Assembly: GCA_947034885.2 (NCBI GenBank) | Contig: OX344754.2 | Span: 8,811,001-8,875,000 of the forward strand | Source of the DNA: Thuidium tamariscinum | Taxonomy: Eukaryota; Streptophyta; Bryopsida; Hypnales; Thuidiaceae | Reading direction: 5' to 3' | DNA: 64,000 nucleotides | Part shown: in pieces, positions 8,321 to 57,659 of the stretch | Layout of the letters: every line of letters begins with the position of its first letter | Position numbering within the stretch: the first letter of the stretch is position 1 | Program-made: the position numbers and the translations under genes | Notes under the pieces: generated by a model | Told to the model about the DNA's origin: nothing | The model's input: only the letters and a program-made list of their open reading frames with translations | Database searches by the model: none

Positions 8321-9630
8321 ATGGGTGAATCAAGTGGCTCAAATAGTTTGGTGGCCCTTGCCAATGAATCCAAGCATCATGAAACTACCTCCATTTCTCC
8401 ACCAACTGTTTGTGAGCATGAGGGGAGCTCTATAGATGAAATGGAGGGCAGTACTATTGCAGAAAGTATTGAAAGTCAAAGAGTCATTGGAGCCAAGTGC
8501 GGGAGTTTGATTCTAACCATGAAGTGGCTAAAGTGAGCAACATGGAGCTTTTCTAGACTTTGCAAAGCCATCCCGCTTGGGGTCATTTCTTCAAGTTCTT
8601 TGGTGAAGGTGAAGGTAGTTGTGGTGAATTGGTGATGGGTCAAAAGTTTGCGGAGGATGCGCAAGCAGAGCTCTTTGATGTGCAAATAAAGTAGAATAAT
8701 CGAAAATTCAATAAATATGTCCAAGAATCTAAGCTTGAATATGTCTTGAAGGTGTTCAAGAAGGGTACTTTATTGTGATATTTGCAATCACAATGGCCAC
8801 AAGGAATGTTGCAAGATTGTGCAAATGTATGGAAATAGACATATTTTGGATTGCCACAACAATTAAGATTCCATTGTGATGTGCATTGTGCAACCTTGTT
8901 GGAAGATGGGAGGTTTGCTTTTGTGATGATGAAAGAAGCCAAAGATCTAGGGAGTATGATAGAAGAGTCCATGTTGACAAAACCAAATGACAAGGGACCA
9001 TTTTCTAAGGATAATGTTGAAGGCATTATGTATTATGTTGCACGTGGGATGGATCAATTGCATAGTCAAGGTATTGTTCACCGAGACATCAAAGCTTCTA
9101 ATGTACTTTGGTCTTGTGGATTTGCTTTCTATATAGCCGACTTTAAATGCTCAGTTGGAGTTGTGGGAACTGGATTCTTTAGAGCCCTTGAAATTTTGGA
9201 AGCTTACAAGCACGGAAATGTTAGTGAGAAGGATGAGTTATACTCCAAAGCAATGGATGTGTATGGCTATGGAATGATGTGCTACAAGATCTTGACAAGC
9301 AAACTTCCATTTGAAGGTCATCCACAAAATGACTATGACCTTGTGCTCCAAGGACAAAGGACAAAATTGCCCAAAGATGTTGATGATTGGATTTGGAAGT
9401 TGTTGAAAAGATGTTGGCACGAAAATCCTCTTGCTTGTCCTTCATCTAAAGAAATATTGAAAGTTCTTGTAGCTAATTCGAGAATATGTAGAGAAGAAGA
9501 AATATTCCTTGAAAGACGAGAAGTAGAATTAGGAATTAGGAAGGATTCCAAAGTGGCAAAGTTGAAAAGATTATTGAAGATGGTGAAGCTAAAGTTGATG
9601 TGTTCAATAGGAAGGAATCCATCTAGTTAG
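8321..9630 (+). pseudogene. Intronless protein kinase relic (TKL/RLK-like), broken
   Basis: A kinase C-lobe is open to the stop at 9628-9630. It shows HRDIKASNVL (codons from 9079), a degenerate metal-binding motif DFK in place of DFG (9139-9147), RALEILE in place of the APE-type motif, then DVYGYGMMCYKILTSKLPFE and CWHENPLACPS. Upstream, the same frame continues as recognisable N-terminal sequence (FFGEGEGSCGELVMGQKF, LKVFKKGT, QSQWPQGMLQDCANVWK) but is cut by in-frame stops at 8554, 8692, 8776 and 8836. The possible start ATGGGTGAATCAAG at 8321 is in another frame, so a frameshift is also needed. There are no introns, which suggests a retroposed copy, though no poly(A) tail or target duplication is clear. 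The C-terminal 250 residues could only be made from an internal start. Loss of DFG argues against catalysis. Confidence 0.8.
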
Positions 9631-12005: not shown

Positions 12006-12737
12006 TTAACCCCTCCCTGCTGAAGGAGCCCAAAATTGGCCACCAAAAATTTGTCAGAGGCACCTTACTTAGCTCACAAGGAGGTAATTGCGGTACCACT
12101 TGAATGCATCAAATTAGAATTTTGTTACAGATACAAGTGTGGTTTTGGGGATGGTTTCCTTCAAACAAACTTTGAGTTTTGATTGTTTGATTTGGGAGTG
12201 GTCTAAAATTGCACATGGTAGTTGATTGATTATCACCGGCATTGGTTGGTCTCATACAATTGAGCTTTGGATGGATGTTGCCACACAAGGAGTAGTTTTG
12301 GTTGTAGAAAACTGCCATGACAGCCTTGACCGGTCAATGCTTCCAAATTGACCTTGCAATCCATGTAAAAATTCTTGTAATGCATCTTTTGCTCCACAAT
12401 TTTGAGAGGTGAATTTTGAGTGCATTGTGAGCATTTTCACAAATTTGTGAGAGGTTACAGTAACTACTCCACTTGCAAGCAATTCCAAAAAGCTTATTCT
12501 AGTCGCAAAAAATGGAAGTTTTTCTTTGGTCTGTACACATTGGATGCAAATTGCCAAAAATCTAACCGCTAGAATTTTGAAGGCAGACATCCCCACATCT
12601 GAACAACAAGGGCACTCAAAATCCCCACAATTACTTTGGCAAGATTCCTCTACAATCTCCCACATTTTAGTTTTTTTTGCATCGGGGGCCAAAAGTGTGC
12701 ACCCCACAACGTTTGACTGTGGGCGGTGAGGGGTTAA
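12006..12737. mobile_element. Candidate TTAA-bounded repeat with a minus-strand Cys-rich frame
   Basis: The segment starts TTAACCCCTCCCTGC and ends GGCGGTGAGGGGTTAA, so both outer ends are TTAACCCCT in inverted orientation; similarity fades after about 10 bases. Interior sequence differs from the T and U families. A minus-strand frame (12252-12782) of 176 codons crosses the right end and contains SNCGDFECPCCSDVG. I recognise no family. It may be a chance frame, or a remnant of a captured or transposon gene. Confidence 0.4.
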
Positions 12738-13627
12738 GTACAAGTACATTGAGAGGGATTTGAGGACATTGAGAGACTCCAAGTTATCTTGAATTCTTGG
12801 ATTATAGGAATGTGCCTCATCGGCAATTTAATGTTATTGAGAGAGTATTATGTCAAAAAGAAAAATTCATTTTGAATTTTTTGAATTTTTCTAAAATCAA
12901 TTTTAGATTTCTTAACACTATTTGAAATTTTGAAAAAAATAAAAAATTTACTTCCTTCAAAACTTCAGCCATTACAATTTACAAGTTGGTTCACAATTTC
13001 TATAGAGCACAAAGAATAGGTAGGGGATCAACTTTGAAACGCCTTTTCCTTGCCCTTAAATCCCTTCTAATGATTAGAAAAAAAATTACATTAAACATAT
13101 ATTAGCGTAGGATTTTATAGTTTAGTAATTTGAAAAAATATGGAAAGAATTTCAAAAGTTTCTAATAGGGGTAGTCATACCTTCTTCAATAAATAGATTT
13201 CATAGAAGAAGGGAGAAGAAACAAGAGCAAATCCAACGCCTTTCTAGGTGAAGAAGGTGTAATGCTCCGTTTTAGTGCATTGACAACAAAGATTCAAAAG
13301 TTACAAAATTGATTTACCTATATACAAGATAAAGCCAATTGGATAGGACTTGAAAAGCAAGCTGCATGAAGCTCTTGCCACTACAACAGAGGTAAAATTG
13401 TAAAGTGCTACAATGGTGAAGAAAAGTATCAAATAAAAAGAAATAGCTTGTGAAAGCTATTGCTCACCCCAAATCCACCTCTTGAGCAGAATAATCGATG
13501 TTGTGAAGGCTTTGTGGGAGATTTAAAAAGCTATGTTTAAGAACCTTCAGCACACCAACAAAACCCTGACATATCCCTGCTCTTCAAATTTGGGGTGATG
13601 CGAGAAGAAGGTGTGACTACTCTTAAT
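12738..13627. other. AT-rich intergenic
   Basis: No gene or bounded repeat identified before the T-family fragment that follows. Confidence 0.4.
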
Positions 13628-14318
13628 GTGTAGATTGCAAGATATTAGCATTTGAATTGACAAAAATCATTTTTATGGCCCTAAAGAAAACTAGGCAATT
13701 GTACTTTACAAATCACAAGATGAACTTTAAATTAAAAAAATGTCTATATTGGTGGCGCTTCTTTGGATTTGTACTTCAAGGCAAATTTTCTCTATGCTTG
13801 AAAATTTTCAGATTATATGAATTTGTACAACGTATAGGAAAAAAATAATAATTACAAAGAAGTAAAGAATTATTGAAAATACTAAATTGTCAAGAATTTT
13901 ATTATGGAATCGAAAAATGCCAATCCCAATGTTTGAAAAGTTATATTAATAAAAAATCTACATCCTATAATTTTAATTTTTTCAAAATATTGAGAATCAA
14001 GTTAAGTAAAGAACCTCAAAGTTTATTTTAAAGTAGAGAATTTACAATTGCTCATAAACTGAAACTCCTCAGAACTTAATTTCAAATTTTTGTTTTTGAA
14101 ATAATTTATTTTTTTGATTTACCTAGATTGAGAAAGAAACTACATATCATACAATAATTTTTTTTATTATATGGTCAAAAGTTATGAAAATTGTTAGTCC
14201 TTAAAGACACTCCTTGTCCACATGTTGTAGGAAAATTTCAAAGATAAATAAAAAAATCCATTTGTTATAAGCTACATATAATTTCTATGTTGCCAAAAAA
14301 ACGCCATTTAATCCTCTA
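13628..14318. mobile_element. T-family element, left-truncated and decayed
   Basis: The interior runs parallel to the copy at 45679-46612. Shared landmarks are GTAGATTGCAAGATATTAG near 13630, a region of AAATGCCAATCCCAATG near 13915, and GTTGCCAAAAAAACGCC near 14290 followed by a worn right end (TTTAATCCTCTAG). The left terminus is missing. Confidence 0.6.
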
Positions 14319-15616
14319 GAAAAAATATAGATTAATGAAGGAATCATTTAGGTAATTAGCTTCAACAATTCATTTATATTACTAAAGCCAAGGCTAAAGC
14401 ATTTGGGAGTTGTTTAAGAGGAGCCCTACAAACTAAAATTGCTTAATTTTGTATATATTGTATGTAATAATGCTTATTTAGAATCTTTGATTCCAAATAA
14501 GAATTCAAATGTTTCAACTTTGAACATTTGTGGTAACTACTTCATAATAACTTTCTATCTTTTGTTCTTTCTCCGAAGTGAAACTTAAGAGCATATTTTT
14601 CTAGGAACATATGAAGTATTTCTCTAAAAAAATCCAACCTTTAGAAAAGCAAAAATTACAAATTTTTAAAAAGATACTTCAAAATCATATTGTAGAATGG
14701 ATAATGGCTCCACAATGTACAATTCAAAATTGTTTTCTTTCCACACTAAAATTCAATTATTCTATGATTCACCTTGCAACACTTTCCATTCTCTAATATC
14801 TAGATATAAATGAAATTGGATGAATTTTTCCATCATAGAAAAAACATCACAATTTTTCAAAAGCAACCAATGCAAGATGAGAAGTTTTGGGAAGCAACAA
14901 ATGAGAGTTGAGACATTTTGAGCTTCAAAGGTGGCCATTCAAGATGAGTCTAGTACTATTTGTTTAACCCCTAAGCGTCACAAACCAAACAGCTTTGAAG
15001 ATGGGACCAATTTAAAAAAGCAACGTAACTTGAATTTGAATTGATTATTGCATTTCTCACCATACAGATCTATAGCCAACAACCTCATCAATCTAAACTC
15101 ATTTCTTTTGGGGAAATCCATCATATGGATGCAAACATTATTAGGTTTGATGAACCTAGTCTTTCAAAATCAAAAGTCTGAAAAACATCCCATATAATGT
15201 TCAAGGGTACGCTACCCTATGCTCTGAACTTTGAAAATTTGTAAAATATTGCTAGAGTGTCCGAATACTACAAAACCACCTGGGTTGCATTTCTGATGAG
15301 TCTGTCAACAATGACATCAAAATAGGACTCATAATCATAATTGGGTTTTGGGTATGAAACTTGCAGCTTATTACCTCCTTGCACGTTCAAGGCATAGCCA
15401 AAAATTCGTGGGCAGGATGTCCCGACACCGAAATGCGCACTCATCTGCTTCATCAATTGATGCCGCTCATTGAATCAGAACCTCAACTCTCCCGGAGAAG
15501 CGTTTTCGCAGAAAGGACTTGAGCTATGGCGCAACAGAGTTTTATGACTTGTGCTTGAGCGACTTCGGAATGCGAGAGGGAAAGCGTTGGCAAGGAACTG
15601 GAGACGACGATACACG
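14319..15616. other. Intergenic and presumed ARP6 promoter / 5' UTR
   Basis: AT-rich until about 15350, then composition becomes more balanced towards the ARP6 start. A lone TTAACCCCTAAGCG terminus-like motif sits at 14964 without a partner. No TATA box was convincing close to the ARP6 start codon. Confidence 0.4.
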
Positions 15617-18600
15617 ATGAAGAGGACGGGGAAAGGGGCGACGGCCACCGTGGTGGTGCTGGACAATGGAGCGGGCTACTGCAAAGCCGGCATGGCTGGA
15701 CAGACGGAGCCCACGGCCGTGGTGCCCAACTGTTTGGCGCGCCCGCGCTCGGCCAAGAAATGGCTCGTCGCGGACCAGTTGCAGGAGTGCGATGACATCC
15801 AGAGCATTGCGATCAAGAGACCGATCGACAGGGGGTACATGATCTCCCCCGACGTGGAGCGCGAGATTTGGGAACGCATTTTTAAGACGCATCTCAAGGT
15901 TTGTGTGCGTCGCCGTTGGCTGGTACTGTGTTTGAGGGTTGAGGCTTTAGGGAGAATTATCGATTGACCGGGGGTGCATGATCTCCCTTGACGTGAGGTG
16001 TGAGATTTAGGAACGCATTTAGGAACTTAGTTATGAGACTCATCTCAAGGTTTGTGCGTCTCCCTTTGCTGGTACCCTGTTTCAGGGTTTTAGGATTAAG
16101 GGCTTATGGTTCAGTCAGAGAATTGCGATCGAGAAACCGATCGACAGGGGTACATGATCTCCCCTGACGTGGAGAGTGAGATTTGAAACCGTGTTCTTAA
16201 GACTCGTCTCAAGGATTGTGTGTTTTAGGGTTTAGGGTTTAGGGTGTCTGATCAGAGAATTGCGATCGAGAATGGGGGGTACATGAGTTCATCCGACGTG
16301 GAGAGCGACCATATCTCATGGTTTTGTGTGTTGCTTTATAGTGGATCTCAGAGCAGACACTTTCATCGTTGGAGGCTCTTGTTGTTGGACTATGTTTTTC
16401 ATGTGTTACACTCACATTCTTGAATAATGCTTCCAACTTTGGAAGTTATGATGTAAATATCAGTTTCCAGCCATAATTGCTTGTGATTGGAGACTCATCT
16501 TTCTCTATTAGTTATTTGAGAGACTTCAATGAACTCTCCACTTTTGTCTTCTCCTATTAGTTCTCCCATTCCTTCTTCTCTACTCTGAAATCCACTATTG
16601 TGTTTTAGGTTTAATGCTTTGGTGCGATCCCATTCCAACGGTGCAAGCACTCAACGTTGAACATTTTGCTTCCTGAAATACTGGTCTGAATCCCGCTCTT
16701 TTGTAGAAAGATTTAAGGTTTGGTGTGGTCCTCCCACTCCGAATTGGAAGAATTAAACGTCAAACCATAGGACATCATTTGCCTCCTAATCTACTCTGAA
16801 ACCTACAATTGTGTTTTAAGGGTTTAGGGTTTGATCGTTGACTCCAGTTACGTGCAGATCAACCCTGCAGAGAGCGGTTTGATGCTGGTGGAGCCGCTTT
16901 TCACGTTGTCGTCGATTCAAAAAGCCACAGATGAGCTTGTATTCGAAGATTTCGGATTTCAGTCATTTTGCGTGACAAATGCTGCAGTCTCAACGCATGC
17001 GTACCAGGCACAAAAAGCACCAGCGAGCATCCTCGCCAGAGGGAGGACCAGCTTGGTAGTGGACTCGGGATTTTCCTTCACGCACGCAGCGCCGGTGTTT
17101 CAGAGCAAGGTTTCACTGCTGTTGCTCATTTTTGAAAATTTGCAAAACCACTGCAGCCATTTTGGTAGAGTATTCTTGTTTCCTTAAATTTGTTGTGGAA
17201 TTATTACATTTGATACATTTTAGGCTCATTTTGACGTCCCTTTTTTGTTGCAAGTCTTCAGTTTCTGGCTAGTAGCCGAGAATATCACTTCTGACCGTCT
17301 GTTTAAAAATCTGTATGTTTTTTCACTTCAAGGCGGTCACGGCGTCGGTGAAGCGGATCAACCTGGGAGGCAAGGCGCTCACGAATTATCTCAAGGAGTT
17401 GGTGTCGTACCGGGCTTGGAATGTTATGGACGAGACGTATATCATGGAGGATGTCAAGGAGCGTCTGTGCTTTGTCTCCGCGGACATTGAACGTGATCTC
17501 AACATTGCTCGGTTGGTGTCGCACATGTGGATTTCTTGGTGTTCCCATTGTATTTTTCAGGAGACTGATTGCTTATTTTGTATGTTTTGAAATTTGATTA
17601 TGTTTTTTTATTTCTTTTTAGTTGTTTGTGAGGGCTAGATTACGACGCATTGCATTGAAAATGTCTACTTGGGCTTCAGGTTGAAAGGGAAAGCCAATTC
17701 TTTACGGCGCGAGTACGTACTCCCCGATGGTGTCAAACATAAGCGAGGTTTTGTGAAGGAGTTTGAACCTGTGGCTGATGACAAGGTGAATCCCCCTTAA
17801 ACCCTAAATGATCGATTATCTCAGATTGTGCTTCATTTTTTTGAACACATTTGAGTGTGTCGTTTTAAGACTTCGTTTTTTCCCGTTGTATTTACTTTTG
17901 ACCAACACATACGATGTTCCTGTTGATAGATGATTTGGGGTTATCCGAATTACATGTTCTCACAATAGGATCAACTGATTAGGCCATTTTGCAACCATGA
18001 ATCCTTGATCCTTTACGGACTTTGGCTTTGTATTCCTGAAATTCTAGATTGGTCTTTATCGCAGAAAACTTTAGAAGGCTGAGGCTTCCTGGCTGATAAT
18101 GGCATTGAAAGGGCAATTTGTAGATCTATATATTATCGCACCTGATCTGGAGTTGCTAGGTTGTAAATGTCAGCGACGAGGATGATGAAGAGGACGAGGA
18201 CCACATTGACGAGGACCAAGTTGAAGAGAGTAGAAGACGGCGGATACAGCGAAAGCGAGCCCCTGCCTCGAAGCAAGAGGATCAGGTGATGATCTCTACC
18301 ACCTTACCAGGTGTTCCTCTCAATTTTTCGAAACTCTATTTCTAAGCATTAGCAACTGTCTCCACTCATGTTAGCAGGTGTAAGGTTTGCAGATACTCAT
18401 TGACAACATATGGTTGTAAACGGATGGTGTAGAGATAGTTTTTTCCTCGTGTACTGCATTAGGTATGAAACAATCGCTTTCACATGCTTTGCAGCAAGAG
18501 TTGACGTTGACTAATGAGCGCTTCTTGGTGCCGGAGATGTTGTTCCACCCGGCTGATCTTGGTAATTCTTCTTTCTAAAGTTTTGAATATTTGCAATCGT

Positions 18601-29815: not shown

Positions 29816-35865
<6,050 letters not shown>

Positions 35866-40716: not shown

Positions 40717-41653
40717 TTAATCCCTAAAGGACCAAGGCCTTTTTTTGTCAGAAAAAACATTCAAAACTACCACTTCTATATATTGAAAAGAATTAAAAAA
40801 TTTGAAAACTCTTTTTTGCACATCTAACTATAGGATCCCGTACCTTACAAGTATGAGAGTATGTGAAAAAAAATTCAAAATTTTTGATTGTACAAATTGC
40901 AAGATATCTTTGTTCAAAGTAAAAAAAGAAAGTTTTTTAGCACATTGTAGAATTGGATTATCTGACTCTAAACCTTCTTAACTTTAATTTTTTGCACTAT
41001 ATATTTTTGATCTTAGATAATTATAGTGGAGAATTGAGTTGAGGGTATGGAAAAAGAAGAAAAATATTTAAAACCTAAATTTGTTATCTTTAAAAAATTA
41101 TTGAGTAGAAGTAGGTATAAGATAGAAGGAAAATCTAAATTATTAATATGTCTAAGATGGAATTAAAATGCACTAAAACCAATGGTGAGAATGTGAGATT
41201 GTTTAGACAACAAAATAAACCATGTGGAACTTCTTTTTGAAAAATTGTAATAATTGCATTTAGAAATGAATTCTACAAGTAATTTTTTGAAGAAAACAAT
41301 CAAATTGCCCAATAAACAAGATTGTCTATAACTTTCTCATAACAAATCCAAATAGAATGAATGAAAACCTTCCATGTAGAAAACATATAATCTATGAGAA
41401 GAAATCTTTATTTTCTTAAAACTCAAATTCTAAATTTTTTTGGGATTGCCCCTTCTCCCCTATTTTGAGCTTATTTAGGCATATTTTTTTTTCCCACGCA
41501 TCAATTGAAAAAAAAAATTACATTCCCACAAAGATAATCAATTTTTCTATCTTAAAAAAAAGTTTTAAGAAATCAGAATAAAAATTAAGACCATAGGTAT
41601 CTACCTAAAATTCCATTTGTCCCCCAAAGGAACAATGATCTTTTAGGGATTAA
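40717..41653. mobile_element. T-family element (T3), 937 bp
   Basis: Starts TTAATCCCTAAAGGACCAAG and ends GATCTTTTAGGGATTAA. The interior follows other T copies (AAACTACCACTTCTATA, CTAACTATAGGATCCCGTA, AAATTGCAAGATATC). No coding. Confidence 0.75.
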
Positions 41654-45678: not shown

Positions 45679-46612
45679 TTAACCCCTAAAGGACCACAAC
45701 TATGTTTCCACCAAAACTGCTCCAAAACTGTCATTTCTAGGACAGCTACCAAATTTCAGAAAAAAAACATTTTTTGACACATGTAACCATAGGATCTCTT
45801 AGTGCACTAGTTTGGGAAGATGTAGAAAAAATTTCAGAAATTTCCGCCATGCACATTGCAAGATATTAGTGTTTGAAGTTACAAAAATCATTTTTTTTCC
45901 ACTGCGAAAATTCGGGCAGCTGTACTTCAGAAGGTCACATTTGTATGAAAAAATGTCCAAAATGGTTGCAACTCTTTGGAATTATTTTCCAATTCAAGTT
46001 GTCTACATGCTTGAAAATTTTCATACCATTTGGAATTGTACAACATGTACAAAAAAAATAGTAAGAAGAAAGAAGTAGAAAATGATTCAAAATACAAAAA
46101 TTGGTAACAATTTATTCATTGAATTGAAAAATGCCAATCCCAATGGTTCAAATGTTGTAATAAACAATCTACACCCAATGTTTTTATTTTTTTTCAAAAA
46201 TATTGAAAATTGAATAAAATAAAGGACTTCAAAGTTTATTTTAGAGAAGAGAATCCATAACCACCTGCAAACTAAAATCCTTCATAACTTTTGACTCATT
46301 AATCCAAATGGAACGATTCAAAGCTTTCCATATATATATAAATCTATAAAACCAATTTCAAATTTTTGTTTTCAAAAAAAGTGATTTTTTCTGATTTGCC
46401 CAAACTGTCCGAGTTGAGAAACAAACAACGTTCTATGCAATAACTTTTCAAGTATGTAGTCAAAAGTCACAAAAATTGTTGGGCTTTGAAGATACTCCTT
46501 GTCCACACCTTCTATTAAAGTTTGGTTCCAAAATATGGAAATCTCTAGCCACATGTACCTGCCCAAAATCACTATGTTGCCAAAAAAGGCATGTTGGTCC
46601 TTTAGGGGTTAA
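45679..46612. mobile_element. T-family element (T4), 934 bp, best-preserved ends
   Basis: Starts TTAACCCCTAAAGGACCA and ends TGGTCCTTTAGGGGTTAA, an inverted repeat of 18 bases including TTAA. Flanking sequences outside TTAA differ between copies, consistent with TTAA being the target site and CCCCTAAAGG the true terminus. The interior has no frame beyond 88 codons. Confidence 0.85.
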
Positions 46613-46841
46613 ACGACGAGCTGGTGGCCATGGAAATCATGAATTTTGATACCATGGGAATCATTGGTTCGAAAAAAATCAAAATCTCTCGTTGGAAGTC
46701 AAAGCACCATGAAAGATCTTCCCTTTCCACCCCTAATTTCAAGGATGAATAACTACATTTCTATCCTATACAAAAAGATACAAAAATATTTTGTCTTCTT
46801 CATCGACCAAAATATGGCCCCTCATGTCGTTTAGGGGTTAA
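46609..46841. mobile_element. U-family element (U1), ~233 bp
   Basis: Begins at the right-hand TTAA of T4 (TTAAACGACGAGC) and ends TCGTTTAGGGGTTAA. The interior (GAAATCATGAATTTTGATAC, GGGAATCATTGGTT, CTTCCCTTTCCACCCC) is shared with U2 and, reversed, with U3 and U4. The left end lacks the CCCCTA seen at the right. Confidence 0.75.
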
Positions 46842-48182: not shown

Positions 48183-49068
48183 TTGTCAAATTCCAATTGC
48201 ATATTTCTTTTTTCTTTTTTTTTGAACAACTGGGCAAGGCCCATTGCAACCAATTGCATATTTCACTTCTGTAAGTACATCTTTCAGTTGTTGTTGGTAC
48301 TTTTTAAGAAAACAATTATTCTATTTTATGATACATTTGAAATGGAATTTCATTACAAAGTAAGAATACCTACCTACCAGAAATTATGGTCCAGCCTACA
48401 GTACTGTAGCTGATCTCAGAATCAACTTCTGATGGCATGAAGCCAAAAGCCTCATCCTGTACTTTTTCCTTTGCAATGGAATTTGTCCAATATGTGTTTA
48501 AAAAATAAACCAAAAAGAAATCATCCACCCTGCATAGCATTTATAAAAATAAAATAAAATAAAAACTCATCCACCCTGCATAGCATTTATAAAAACAAAA
48601 CAAAATAAAAACTCATCCACCCTGCATAGCATTTATAAAAACAAAATAAAATAAAAATTCATCCACCCTACATTGCATTTACCAAAAAGAAATTAAAAAA
48701 AATTCAAACTTAGCTTAGCCTACATGGCTCTTGTCTCTTTGGCAAAAAAGTACTCTTAACCAATAGTCAATGTCTAGAGGCTTCCAATTTCCATCAATTA
48801 AGAGTTACTCACTACTTCCTACTTTCTCACACACTAATTCAGGACATGTTTCGTAACCATGTTTATTTTCAACCTCAAAAAGGACCAAAAAAATACATTT
48901 CACGCTTTGGTTGGAGATATATTTTAGCCTGGATTGAAAATATAGAACCCCCTACATATTGGATATTGGATGTAGTTGGTTACTAGTGCTTCAACCTTAG
49001 TTTGTTGTTAGGTAGAAATGTCTACTTTGTAGTCTCAAACTGTGTTTCAATTCATCATAAGGTCCACT
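48183..49068. other. Intergenic containing a minisatellite
   Basis: Apart from the tandem repeat at 48521-48690, annotated separately, no gene or bounded element was seen. Confidence 0.4.
48521..48690 (+). repeat. 46-bp minisatellite, about 3.7 units
   Basis: TCATCCACCCTGCATAGCAT followed by an A-rich tail recurs at 48521, 48567, 48613 and 48659, exactly every 46 bases. Units differ by a few substitutions and the last is most diverged. Confidence 0.85.
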
Positions 49069-49442
49069 TTAACCCTATAACGTTGAACATTGCAAATACT
49101 AAATGTTCAAGGGAAATAGAAAATCCTTTGATGTAAGATATATAAAAGTGCAATTGTTCATGCTTGAAATTTTGGGCAAAAAAGGGAGGTCTTGCATAGT
49201 TATTTGACTTCCAATTAGTACTTTTTGATTTTCTTAAAGTAGATGACTGACAGGACCAAAAGGACCTAAATGACCAAAGTGCATCTCTTGGCAACATAGT
49301 GATTTTGGATAGGTTCTTATAAATGGAGTTTTTGTTGTTTTTTCTTTGAAATTTTCACACAACAATTTTCCCGGGGTGTAGCTTTAAGGCCCAACAATTT
49401 TCATAACTTTTGACTACATGGTTCAAAAGTTATTGTATGATA

Positions 49443-50928
49443 CTCCCTCTATCCTTCTAAAAGCTTCCAAAACTCTTTCCCTTAACCCCTAAAGGACCAA
49501 CCTACCAAATTTGGCAACATAGCAATTTTGGGCAAGTACGTGTGAGTGGAGATTTCCATATTTTGGGCTGAAATTTTAGTAGAAGGTGGTGACAAGGAAT
49601 ATCTTCCATATGTACAAAAATCAGGACATTTGGAAATACAAGTCAAAAGACATGGCCTAATATGTTACTTTTTTCGTAACTAGGCAGTTCGGGCAATTTG
49701 GAAAAAATCACTTTTTTCAAAAATAAAAATTGAAATTAGTATTCTTCATTTATGTATGCGAGGAAAGCCTTAAATCATTCTATATTGATCAATGAGTCAA
49801 AAGTTATGAGTTTTTTTTGTTTGTGGGTAGTTATGGATTCTTTACTCTAAAATAAACTTTGAAGTCTTTTATTTTAGTCAATTTTCAGTATTTTTTGAAA
49901 AAAATAAAACTACAGGACGAAGATTGTTTATTACAACAATCCAACTATTGGGATTGACATTCACGATTAGATTCTCAACAATTTTATATTTTGAAACATT
50001 TTCTACTTATTTTTACTTTTTTTTTTCCTATATGTTGTACAATTCTAAAAAATTTGAAATTTTTTAGGCAAGTACCCTACTTGGCCTCAATAATGAATCC
50101 AAAGAGGCACAACCATTTTGGACCATTTTCATATGATTGTTGCCATCTAAAGCACAGCTGCCTTGTTTTCTGCAAGGTGAAAAAAATGATATTTGAGCAT
50201 TCAAACGCTAATATCTTTCAATCTACACGGTGAAAACCCCTAAATTTTCTTGTACATGTTTTAAAACTAGTTTACTACAAGATCCAACGGTTACAAATCT
50301 CAAAAAATGTTTTAAGAAAAAAAATTGGTATTGGTACTAGATATGGCAGTTTTTGACCATTTTTGGAATGAACATTGTCAAAGAACTTTAAGGGGTTAAG
50401 AAATTAACTATGTTTTTTTTTATCAAAGTGACTAAAATACATGCATTCAAGAATAAATAACCCATTCATTAGATCTATGCAAAATTTGAAGCTTAAGCAC
50501 TATCGTTTAGGCACCTAAAATACAAGTAAAAAGTACAAAATTTGCCATTTTATAATTGTTGCTAACTCTATCATTTTAGATGATTTAAAGGGTGGTGGAT
50601 ACAATAGGATTCTAATAAGATGTTCCCCAATCTAAGTATCCAAAAACAAATAAAAGTAGCCAACTTTATGATCAAATTTTAATAATGCCAAAGTGATTAC
50701 TAAACAAGTTGTGAATACTACTATTTGAGGAAGCAATTAGTACAAGGTGCCTCATATTGCCATTTTAGGCCAAGCTTGCAAGGCCAATGACATGCTCTTA
50801 GATTGTTTCACTTGCCCCCACAAGGTCGTTCAAACAACATTCACTAAACGGTCAAAATCACAAAAAGGAGCTTTTTAGAAGGACATAAATATTGCTTGAT
50901 TTGGAAGCTTATAATGGAATAGAGGGAG
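49443..50928. mobile_element. Stowaway-like element, itself split by T5
   Basis: Ends are CTCCCTCTATCCTTC on the left and GGAATAGAGGGAG on the right, flanked by TA (49441-49442 and 50929-50930). CTCCCTC termini with a TA duplication are the hallmark of plant Stowaway (Tc1/mariner) MITEs. A second inner match is AAGCTTCCAAA near 49461 with TTTGGAAGCTT near 50900. Without T5 it is about 580 bp. Non-coding. Confidence 0.8.
49492..50399. mobile_element. T-family element (T5), innermost insertion
   Basis: Starts TTAACCCCTAAAGGACCAAC and ends AAGAACTTTAAGGGGTTAA. 908 bp with T interior (GGCAACATAGCAATTTTGGG, GTGGAGATTTCCATATTTTG). It is intact and lies inside the Stowaway-like element. Confidence 0.82.
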
Positions 50929-53755
50929 TATGTAGTATTCATTCCTTGGCGTGCAGTTTGGACAGAAAAAAATGTCTTTGAAAATTATTTTCTTAAGAAA
51001 TGATTGAAAAAGTTTTGAATCATTCCATTTTGATCAATGAGTCAAAAGTTATGAGGATTTTTAGTTTGGGGTAGTTTGCAGCTAGTTATAGAATCTCTAA
51101 ACTACAAGAAAAAGAGTTTGAAATTCTTTATTTAATTTGATTTTAATATTTTTGAAAAAAATAAAAACATTAGGTATAAATTGTTTAACACAACATTACA
51201 ACCATTGGAATTGGATTTTTTAAAACTATACATAAATTGTTAATAATTTAGTATTTTGAATCATTATCTACGTACTTCTTTCTACATACTATTTTTTCAT
51301 ACATGTTGAACAATTCCAAATGATTTGAAAATTTTCAAGCATGTAGCCAACTTGGCTTGAAGAATGAATTCAAAGAGTTACAATCATTTTGGACATTTTT
51401 CCATACAAATAAGGCCTTTTGAAGTGTAGCTTCCCGGATTTTCGTAGTAGTAAGTAAATGATTTTCATCATTTCAAATACTTATATCTTGCAATGTAGAC
51501 ATCAAAAAAATTTGCATTTTCTTCCACATCTTTTCAAACCAATGTACTAAAAAATTCTATGGTTACATTTGTCTAAGAATGTTTTTTTCTTAAAATCTAG
51601 TAGTTGTCCTAGAAATGACAGTTTTGGAGCATTTTTGGTGAAAAACATAATCAAAAACCTTTAGACGTTAATTCAAAAAAGATGATTTCAACAATGACTA
51701 GCCTATCCTTATTAGATTAATTATATTACAATCCATTGCAAGCATGATGTGAAATTTGCCAACTTTACAATTCACAATGCCAACTGAAATCATATCTTAA
51801 GTTGAAAAATTGGCTTGAGAAAGTTGCTCAAGGATTATAATGAAGCAATTCTTAGCACAAATCAAACATAAGTTGAAAAAATTATGTGTGGGACATTGGG
51901 CCAAGGATTATGGTGAATTTATTATTAGTATTTGAGCCACTATATTTTTGGCACCGATACATGACCATATAAGCACTACATAAGTCGCCGTTGGATGAAA
52001 TGAGAATCAATCTACTTTGCATAATAGAGCATATTGGCCTAATTTAAGGATCTAAACACTCCTATTGGTTGATTTTGGTAATTTTGAATTTAGACCATTA
52101 ATAGGGTGTTAATGTGAATAATGTAGACTATTTAGTTTGAAGTCTCCTTGACTTGGGGGATAATCATTCTTGAGTTAAGTTGAGTTGTATTCTCTATTTT
52201 GCAATGAGTTTTTCATTATTTTTTTAAAAAACACCTAAAAGAAGATACTTAATTTGGAATTCAAACAATTTCAAGTGAACTTCAAGTAAGGTAGAGACAT
52301 TTGCATGTGTGCTCACTTAAGTTGATGTGTATAGATGGAGTCAAAATCACAATTAAGTGTGTTATTTTTACCATGTAGACAAATGAAAATTATTAATATC
52401 ATTCAAAACATAAAAATAAAAATAAGAGATTAACTTTTTGTATTTCTTAAAGTTAAGGTTGGAAAAAAACTTCAAAGTATTCTTTAGGTGCATGTTGGGT
52501 GTATGTCATGAAGCACATGGAAAAAAGCCCCCAAACCAATCATTGAAAGTTTGTTATTTACAATCATGAAGAGTCATTTGTAAAATAGAAGGCATTCAAA
52601 AGGAATGGTTTGAGGTCATATTGGTGACACTTCAAATAGACACCTATTTGATAGAAATGGAAGGGCAAATAGTGTGAAGCTCAGGTATTTTTTTCTTTAA
52701 GAGAGGGACCCATTTTCTACTTGGAATAGAAGGTAACTTTCAAAATATGTAACCCATTAAGACCAAAGTAATGACCAAAATATTATGATTATTGGACTAA
52801 TATTTAGGTGCATTTTTGGTTTCTTTAGTGAATTCAAATCTTTGATCTTTAGATTTGCAAAGTCTATATAGCATTTCCATTTTGAAACAACATAATAACT
52901 TCATTAACAACTACGGTAAAGGTACTTTAAAGTACCTGCTAGGAAGGAATGTTGTCATGAATGTTGTAGATAGTTGAGCATAAGAGCTTCACTCCTATGT
53001 TGTAAGAGCCTTTTTTGTTGATATTGCAATGCTCACTAACAACAATGGTCCAATGACAATGGTTAATGATTTAACTGATGCGTAATGTTGGTGTGACTTG
53101 GCTATTATTATGTCTTCTTCAAATTGTGCCATGTCACTTTGGTGACCTTGCTATTAATGTATCTCAAGTACAACACTAATAATGCCCTTATTCATAGCAC
53201 TAATCAAAGATATGACCGCAAAGCTACATCATAAAGAATTAAATTGTTCCTCAACAATTACCTTGGATTTATTCCTACCAACTAATTTATAGATTTTGAG
53301 GAGTTGGTTTTTTCTTGCATGCATGTAAGGGCATCTTTAATTGTATGGAGAAACATCATTTGAGAAAAATATAAGAACACTATCTGTTAAAATAAATTAA
53401 GTTTTGTTTCACCAATGGAATTCTCTATTTTATCTAAGTTCAACCAACTACAAGTTAGACTCTTAGTAGCCTAAAGAAGAAAGACTCTCCATCATTGCTA
53501 ATTAAATGAACTATTTGTGGAAGAAAAAATAGCTATGAGGTATTTTTGTCCCTGGCAAAATTCAAATTTTGGATGTACTGAAGAGAGTGTTTTAGTAGTG
53601 TCAAGCATTTAATACTCACTTTTCAACCAATAAATCATCAAGTTAGACTTCAATTGTTGATATATACCATTGGTAATGTTTTAAGAGTATCCCGAATTTG
53701 ATTAGAAACTAGTACACTAACACCGTAATGACCAAGCAACTCAAGAATGCACTCC

Positions 53756-54684
53756 TTAACCCCTAAAGGACCAACATGCTTTTTTTGGCAACATAACTAT
53801 TTTTGGCAGGTACGTGTGACTAGAGATTTCCATATTTTGGGACCAAATTTTAATAGAAGGTGTGGATGAGGAATATCTTTAAAGCCCAACAATTTTCGTG
53901 ACTTTTGACTGCATGGTTAAAAAGTTATTGCATGATATGTTGTTTATTTCTCAACTTGGGCAAATTGGGCAGATCAGAAAAAATCACTTTTTTAGAAAAT
54001 AAAAATTTGAAATTGATTTTATAGATTTATATATATGTGGAAAGCTTTGAGTCATTCCATTTGGACTAATGAGTCAAAAGTTATGAAGAGTTTTAGTTCG
54101 TAGGTAGTTATAGATTCCCTACTCTAAAATAAACTTTGAAGTCCTTTATATACTCAATTTTCAATATTTTTGGAAAAAATAAAAAATTGGGTGTAGGTTA
54201 TTTATTAAAACATTTGAACCATTTGGATTAGCAAGTTTCAATTTCACAAATAAATTCTTAACAATTTAGTATTTTGAATCATTTTCTACTTCTTTTTAGT
54301 TACTATTTTTTTTCTATATGTTGTCCAATTCCAAATGATTTGAAATTTTTCAAGCATGTAGCCAACTTGCCTTGGAGAATGAATCCAAAGAAGCACTACC
54401 ATTTGGACTCTTTTTCATGCAAATGTGAGCTTGTAAAGTGCAGCTGCTCGAATTTTTGCAGTGATAAAAAAGGATTTTTGTAACTTCAAAGACTAATATC
54501 TTGTAATCCACACGATAAAAATTTCTGAAATTTTTTCCTCGTCTTCTCAAACCTGAATACTACAAGATCCTATAGTTATATGTGTCCAAAAACAATATTT
54601 TTCAAATATTTGGTACTTGTGTTAGAAATGGCAGTTTTGGAGGGTTTTTGGTGAAAACATAGTCAAAGAACTTTAAGGGATTAG
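53756..54684. mobile_element. T-family element (T6) inserted in X3
   Basis: Starts TTAACCCCTAAAGGACCAAC and ends GAACTTTAAGGGATTAG, 929 bp. X1 has no element at the matching place (CACTCCTTAGTGAAAATTGG then TATTAGTCTCTC near 22679), giving a related empty site. About 16 bases of X are missing at the junction in X3. Confidence 0.82.
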
Positions 54685-55976: not shown

Positions 55977-56206
55977 TTAACTCTTAAACGTCAAAGAGGA
56001 CATTTTGCTTTCACTGAATGAGAGAAAATCTTCCCTTGTAGAATGGAAATGCAACTATTGATCCTTGGTTTTAGGAGTGAAAAGGGGAGATCTTCTACAG
56101 GGCTTTGACTTCCAATGAATATATTTGGTTTTTCTAAAGTAGATGATGTCACACAAAATCAATATGCATGATTTCCATGGTCACCAATCCGTCTTTCAAG
56201 GATTAA
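55977..56206. mobile_element. U-family element (U3), 230 bp, reversed
   Basis: Starts TTAACTCTTAAACGTC and ends CTTTCAAGGATTAA. The interior is the reverse of U1 (GGGGAGATCTTCTACAG, GCATGATTTCCATGGTCACC). It lies in the 5' flank of NFS2 copy B only. Confidence 0.7.
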
Positions 56207-56855: not shown

Positions 56856-57236
56856 GAAGCATCTTTTTTTGGTTGGATCAGGTTTTGGAGGTAAAAAAGG
56901 GATTCCAGATTTTCTTTGCAATCCCGCTTGCAATTTGTTCTTCACCACATGAATAATCTATAAAATTCAAAGTGTCAGAGACTGATCTCAGGCTGTCATA
57001 AATGAATTAATAGCGAGTACTCCACCGTTTCAGCAAGAATCTTCAGTTGAGAGGTCGGTTAAAGAAACAGGTAGTAACTGGTATTTCGTTAAATGGCTGT
57101 ATGCCTTAAATTTGGCATTTTAATGTGTAGACCATGTGGTATACCGCTGCAAGATACCAACGCCCTGAGGTCTGAAGTCTATACTAATTCTAGAAAATGA
57201 AAGAAAAATGGAGTATGAATACTGCCATAACCCTAA

Positions 57237-57659
57237 ACAACAAGCCGATAGTTGTGGAAATCATGAATTTTGATACTATGGGAATCATTGGTTTAAAAAA
57301 ATCAAAAGCTCTTGTAGGAAGTCAAAGCATTGTGGAAGATCTTCTCTTTCCACCCCATATTCCGAGTATGAATAACTGCATTTCTAGTCAATGAACAAGA
57401 CAGAATAACTGCATTTCTGTCTTGGTCATTGACCAGAATATGGCCTGCGCAAATCATGAATTTTGATAATGTGGGAATCATTGGTTTAAAAAAATCAAAA
57501 GCTCTCGTTGGAAGTCAAAGCATTGTGGAAAATCTTCCCTTTCCACCCCATATTCCGAGTATGAATAACTGCATTTCTAGTCAATGAACAAGACAGAATA
57601 ACTGCATTTCTGTCTTGGTCATTGACCAGAATATGGCCTGCACGTTGTTTAGGGGTTAA
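57237..57659. mobile_element. U-family element (U2) with an internal 193-bp tandem duplication
   Basis: Starts ATAACCCTAAACAACAAGC and ends CACGTTGTTTAGGGGTTAA. Its core repeats exactly end to end at 57258-57450 and 57451-57643. Removing one unit leaves 230 bp, the normal U size. Each unit holds a hairpin formed by CAATGAACAAGACAGAA and TTCTGTCTTGGTCATTG. Confidence 0.82.

Follow-up and report, generated by a model that had tools for sequence, protein, structure and literature searches.

The segment at 49069-51720 of the window analyzed here (the whole 64,000-nt stretch of DNA, 8811001-8875000 of its contig, in a 363-Mb genome of 19 contigs) raises the question of how pieces of several repeat families came to be interleaved, in what order they arrived, and which class of transposase would have moved them. 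A preliminary description had read the segment as a four-level nest, in which a U element encloses a T element, which encloses a Stowaway-like element, which encloses a second T element. The nest of four elements is real: in silico excision of each insert restores the host at every level of the stack, with U being the least firmly established level. The segment very probably consists of four non-coding DNA transposons, nested by successive cut-and-paste insertions. Its parts, from left to right, and the further T and U copies in the window are as follows.

49069-49261, plus strand: left part of U (layer 1), starting TTAACCCTATAAC, with the boundary to T within 49249-49261
49262-49442, plus strand: left part of outer T (layer 2, old subfamily); T profile match at 49262-49443, by a profile that includes outer T
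49443-49485, plus strand: left part of the Stowaway-like element (layer 3), its last four bases forming the left-hand TTAA of inner T
49482-50399, plus strand: inner T (layer 4, young subfamily), 918 bp including both TTAA copies
50400-50928, plus strand: right part of the Stowaway-like element, up to the TA at 50929-50930
50931-51671, plus strand: right part of outer T, ending in TTAA at 51668-51671
51672-51720, plus strand: right part of U, ending in TTAA at 51717-51720
13511-14319 (minus strand), 45679-46612, and 53756-54683: T copies besides those of the stack
46609-46841, 55977-56206, and 57233-57659: other U copies

Inner T carries a TTAA target duplication, with TTAA preceding CCCCTAAAGG at its left end and following CTTTAAGGGG at its right end, and it sits at a TTAA of the Stowaway-like element, which bears out the claim that an intact second T splits that element at TTAA. 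The longest ORF touching inner T is 80 aa. Elsewhere in the genome, at least 33 near-full-length T copies at 82-88% identity were found among 58 matches outside the window, copy counts that are lower bounds because 40 of 13358 first-look candidates were scored. The window further contains, at 40717-41653, a divergent copy resembling T, which measures 937 bp and has TTAA at each end.

With inner T removed, the Stowaway-like element (49443-50928) is 572 bp long and is bounded by TA at 49441-49442 and TA at 50929-50930. Its ends, CTCCCTCTATCC and CTCCCTCTATTC, form inverted arms of 32 nt that are 84% complementary, the left-end repeat pairing with 50900-50931. Only two zero-mismatch matches to CTCCCTCYRTYC occur in the window, and these are the two ends of the element; with up to two mismatches, 16 matches are present in the window, a number not above chance (mean, 12.6). 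Ends of Stowaway MITEs begin with CTCCCTC and are of a type typical of plants, and the inverted ends here begin in the same manner. The TA target duplication is likewise visible, with TA on each side of the element where two other T copies that lack the insertion have just one TA.

The unoccupied site with its one TA lies at 14140-14154 (minus strand) in the first of these T copies and from 53928 in the second; the rebuilt outer T used for this comparison and for the distances given below was without base 50931, leaving a one-base gap at the junction. Another T copy had previously been said to show the empty site, and this holds for 13511-14319 and 53756-54683 and less well for 45679-46612, which reads AGAA at the position of the Stowaway insertion. 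Excision of the Stowaway-like element yields an outer T of 922-934 bp, according to the choice of left boundary, a range that includes the 926 bp proposed earlier. The rebuilt element, in a version off by a base or two, aligns across the junction to 46606-45679 (74%), 53762-54675 (71%), inner T (66%), and 14319-13597 (65%). With a T profile built without outer T, the joined sequence gives one match spanning profile positions 7-931 (522 bits), while the unjoined parts give 437 and 75 bits, the 75-bit left part corresponding to positions 7-182. Outer T is thus one element split at TA by the Stowaway-like element, as had been claimed. Its left TTAA and first ~6 bases are eroded beyond recognition, for which reason the boundary between U and outer T is known only to 49249-49261; the end of the left U-type sequence as given earlier, near 49257, falls inside this range.

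Removal of outer T leaves a stack U of 230-242 bp, bracketing the size of about 238 bp given before, with TTAA at 49069 and 51717-51720. A U profile built without the stack copy matches 49144-49261 only (52 bits) and leaves 49069-49143 unmatched, the support for that part being its end motif and length. The right part is where a three-level stack comes into consideration, in which T would have landed in unrelated sequence beside a left U remnant. Consistent with this alternative, the right match is short, 51672-51720 on its own is not listed by the same profile even at E 10, and its local alignments to four U stretches are weak, with scores reached by 42, 73, 150, and 405 of 2000 shuffles. A global test, run after the local one with 49-mer pools that came from the window and so contained true U tails, speaks against it: the score of 51672-51720 versus U 55977-56206 was reached by 10 of 20000 random 49-mers, 5 of 20000 AT-matched 49-mers, and 10 of the 926 49-mers ending in TTAA, and that versus U 46609-46841 by 89 of 20000, 65 of 20000, and 39 of 926, respectively. 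These two comparisons are the ones that count, as a third, meant for the U at 57 kb, used a wrongly cut stretch and scored at chance level (4853 of 20000). The preliminary description had named a right-hand match no better than random AT-rich sequence as grounds for doubt; by global scores the match exceeds random sequence, modestly. Furthermore, the segment terminates in TTAA where a U of normal length would, its join to the U left part ranked first of 301 joins, narrowly (55.0 versus 54.7 bits), and a U profile that includes the stack copy, and is partly circular in this respect, ends at position 197-200 on the left side of T and picks up again at 195 on the right. Absence of the U level is considered improbable, and U very likely forms the outermost layer.

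U starts with TTAACCCCTAAAC at 46841 and 57659, with TTAACCCTATAAC at 49069, and with TTAACTCTTAAACG at 55977; most U tips are CCCCT, and both the copy at 55977-56206 and the stack U have TTAA on both sides. Since U copies bear TTAA and CCCC-type ends, U itself would be a TTAA element; these ends of U are an addition to the preliminary description, which lacked them. The copy at 57233-57659 carries a 193-bp internal tandem duplication (57253-57638), with copies 96% alike. The T copy at 45679-46612 stands at the right end of the U copy at 46609-46841, where the GTTTAA of U runs directly into the CCCC of T; the GGGG end of this U seems lost, perhaps by deletion in a palindrome formed by both ends.

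A stack of this appearance might also arise by rearrangement or duplication rather than by insertion, and tandem arrays and adjacent T copies are indeed present nearby. Given target duplications at two levels and hosts restored on excision, however, such an origin is barely credible. Just left of the stack, a 46-base tandem repeat occupies 48500-48683, with successive 92-base pairs 85-89% alike.

Who sits inside whom gives the order of arrival, oldest first: U, outer T, the Stowaway-like element, and inner T. The claim that the stack orders the activity of its families is supported by this nesting, which ranks them in time without any substitution rate. In the proposed course of events, a U element would have inserted at TTAA, an old-subfamily T would then have inserted into U, a Stowaway-like element would have entered the old-subfamily T at a TA, and a young-subfamily T would finally have inserted at a TTAA of the Stowaway-like element. 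T and U would presumably have been moved by a TTAA-specific transposase from autonomous relatives at other sites of the genome, and the Stowaway-like element by a mariner-type transposase.

Because outer T predates the Stowaway-like insertion and inner T postdates it, the T family was active at least twice, as previously suggested. A comparison of divergence, which had been proposed together with the nesting, agrees with that order. Inner T differs by 6% from a consensus of ten copies (built from 10 of 12, with outer T and the 13.5- to 14.3-kb copy left out) and by 10-12% from seven individual copies in the genome. Outer T differs by 28% from the same consensus, a figure that overstates its age because it belongs to another subfamily than the consensus, and by 24% and 27% from its two nearest T copies in the window, these two being 15% apart.

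The ends of T and U bear on the transposase class. Since U too has TTAA/CCCC-type ends, this kind of end is common to three of the four layers. In the window, TTAACCCC occurs 12 times versus 1.6 expected, a count reached by none of 100 shuffles; seven of the 12 occurrences mark the end of a T or U copy, and the other five are at 1301, 12006, 12737, 14964, and 47614. At 12006-12737, TTAACCCCTCCCTGCT and TTAACCCCTCACCGCC face each other over 732 bp, with 13 of 16 bases alike, and a third TTAA family there is possible, judging by these ends. A minus-strand ORF of 176 aa (12252-12782), its larger frame being without a Pfam match, overlies this interval.

According to PMC2872659, piggyBac elements have TTAA, terminal inverted repeats 12-19 bp long, and tips reading CC[C/T]T; piggyBac-type elements are recognized there by TTAA in combination with C-rich repeats. 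Among eight T copies (inner T and seven genome loci), TTAA is found on the left in seven, the exception being a TGAA at one genome locus, and on the right in all eight. In the copy at 45679-46612, the perfect terminal repeat is 18 bases long with TTAA counted in, which leaves 14 perfect bases beyond TTAA and lies within the 12-19 bp range; terminal repeats of the young T subfamily are shorter and less exact than in that copy. The T tip is CCCCT, so that CC[C/T]T is matched one base in and not at the extreme end. From these features, a single TTAA-specific class, most likely piggyBac-type, is tentatively proposed to have moved both T and U.

Two other classes of movement were weighed against this proposal. 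Insertion at TA alone, by a mariner-type element whose inner ends read ACCCC and whose outer T and A reflect target preference, would give a sequence identical, letter by letter, to a TTAA duplication when it occurs into TTAA; yet a T stands outside the left end and an A outside the right end in eight of eight copies, for which the chance is about 1e-8 unless TTAA preference is strict (window T, 0.33; A, 0.31), making this route highly unlikely. Kolobok and Sola3 also duplicate TTAA, and either of these, rather than piggyBac, could have supplied the transposase for T and U. The CCCCT tips of T and most U copies, which are not exactly CC[C/T]T, would allow for this, as would the listing of plants with Sola elements (Sola1 in a moss, and pepper) in PMC9033089. 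Conversely, the combination of C-rich tips and 14-base repeats next to TTAA comes near the piggyBac description in PMC2872659, which for TTAA MITEs knew only piggyBac/TTAA. A Kolobok or Sola3 origin is therefore regarded as rather unlikely. T and U are filed here as TTAA MITEs that would work like piggyBac MITEs, with membership in piggyBac putative. On this piggyBac-type reading, which is somewhat doubtful as a whole, T, U, and perhaps 12006-12737 would be TTAA-specific MITEs that multiplied over a long period in the nuclear genome of a plant, T undergoing a burst later on; if true, the stack records activity of this group in one lineage that both preceded and followed that of Stowaway.

A Pfam search of ten of the 110 stop-to-stop frames of at least 75 aa in the window gave no transposase; the same search of these ten returned kinase-family, actin, and aminotransferase matches. 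No match to plasmids was obtained for 49000-51800 with megablast, and none to Rfam (gathering threshold) or in a tRNA scan across the window. The window also holds a protein kinase fragment at 8839-9627 (Pfam) and plus-strand Pfam actin matches at 15548-15964 and 16828-17184, with a further one below the cut-off at 17276-17587; the frames at 15548-17587 are presumably those of an actin-related protein 6. For the frame at 35127-35459, the best PDB match is a chain named chloroplastic cysteine desulfurase; on the strength of this match and of the plant-type Stowaway-like ends, the host is taken to be a plant.

Nested transposons are everyday in plant genomes, and the stack is filed as an ordinary nesting of known kinds; less ordinary than the nesting is the presence of TTAA and C-rich ends, unusual for plants, in three of the four layers. 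The term piggyBac appears zero times in the available parts of two plant sources, a review of land-plant transposons that names six TIR superfamilies (PMC9033089) and a survey of MITEs from 207 plant genomes that uses five superfamilies and Micron (PMC12550479). Since these two sources, in the parts available, provide no class for them, TTAA families in plants could be overlooked or misfiled. Among the papers listed by searches of open-licence literature, none dealt with plant TTAA MITEs; the word TTAA occurs in two of the plant papers listed (PMC9277781 and PMC5787218). Nevertheless, piggyBac-type elements are unusual rather than unheard of in plants, because two sources report them: piggyBac-like elements occur in plants according to PMC8086355, and the repeat annotation of the fern Ceratopteris, a land plant as well, tabulates PiggyBac at 1230 copies (PMC6890710, a table row alone).

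Among known systems, Stowaway MITEs of the Tc1/mariner superfamily share with the stack element the TA target and ends beginning CTCCCTC, and no tested feature differs, the element being 572 bp without inner T and present as a single copy in the window. Tourist MITEs (PIF/Harbinger) share with T and U an AT-rich target, small size, and commonness in plants and differ in their three-base duplication. Tourist, with its TTA/TAA duplication, was considered as a candidate for T and U and rejected: the flanks read TAA before CCCC and TTA after GGGG, with no direct three-base repeat, and are unreadable as such a duplication. The piggyBac/TTAA MITEs of coral, the CMITEs, as described in PMC2872659, share with T and U the TTAA on both sides, the short C-rich inverted repeats, and the non-coding nature, and, as in the stack, a MITE of this kind is described there as inserted into a second one; unlike them, T and most U copies have a CCCCT tip in place of an exact CC[C/T]T, and T and U reside in a plant-like host.
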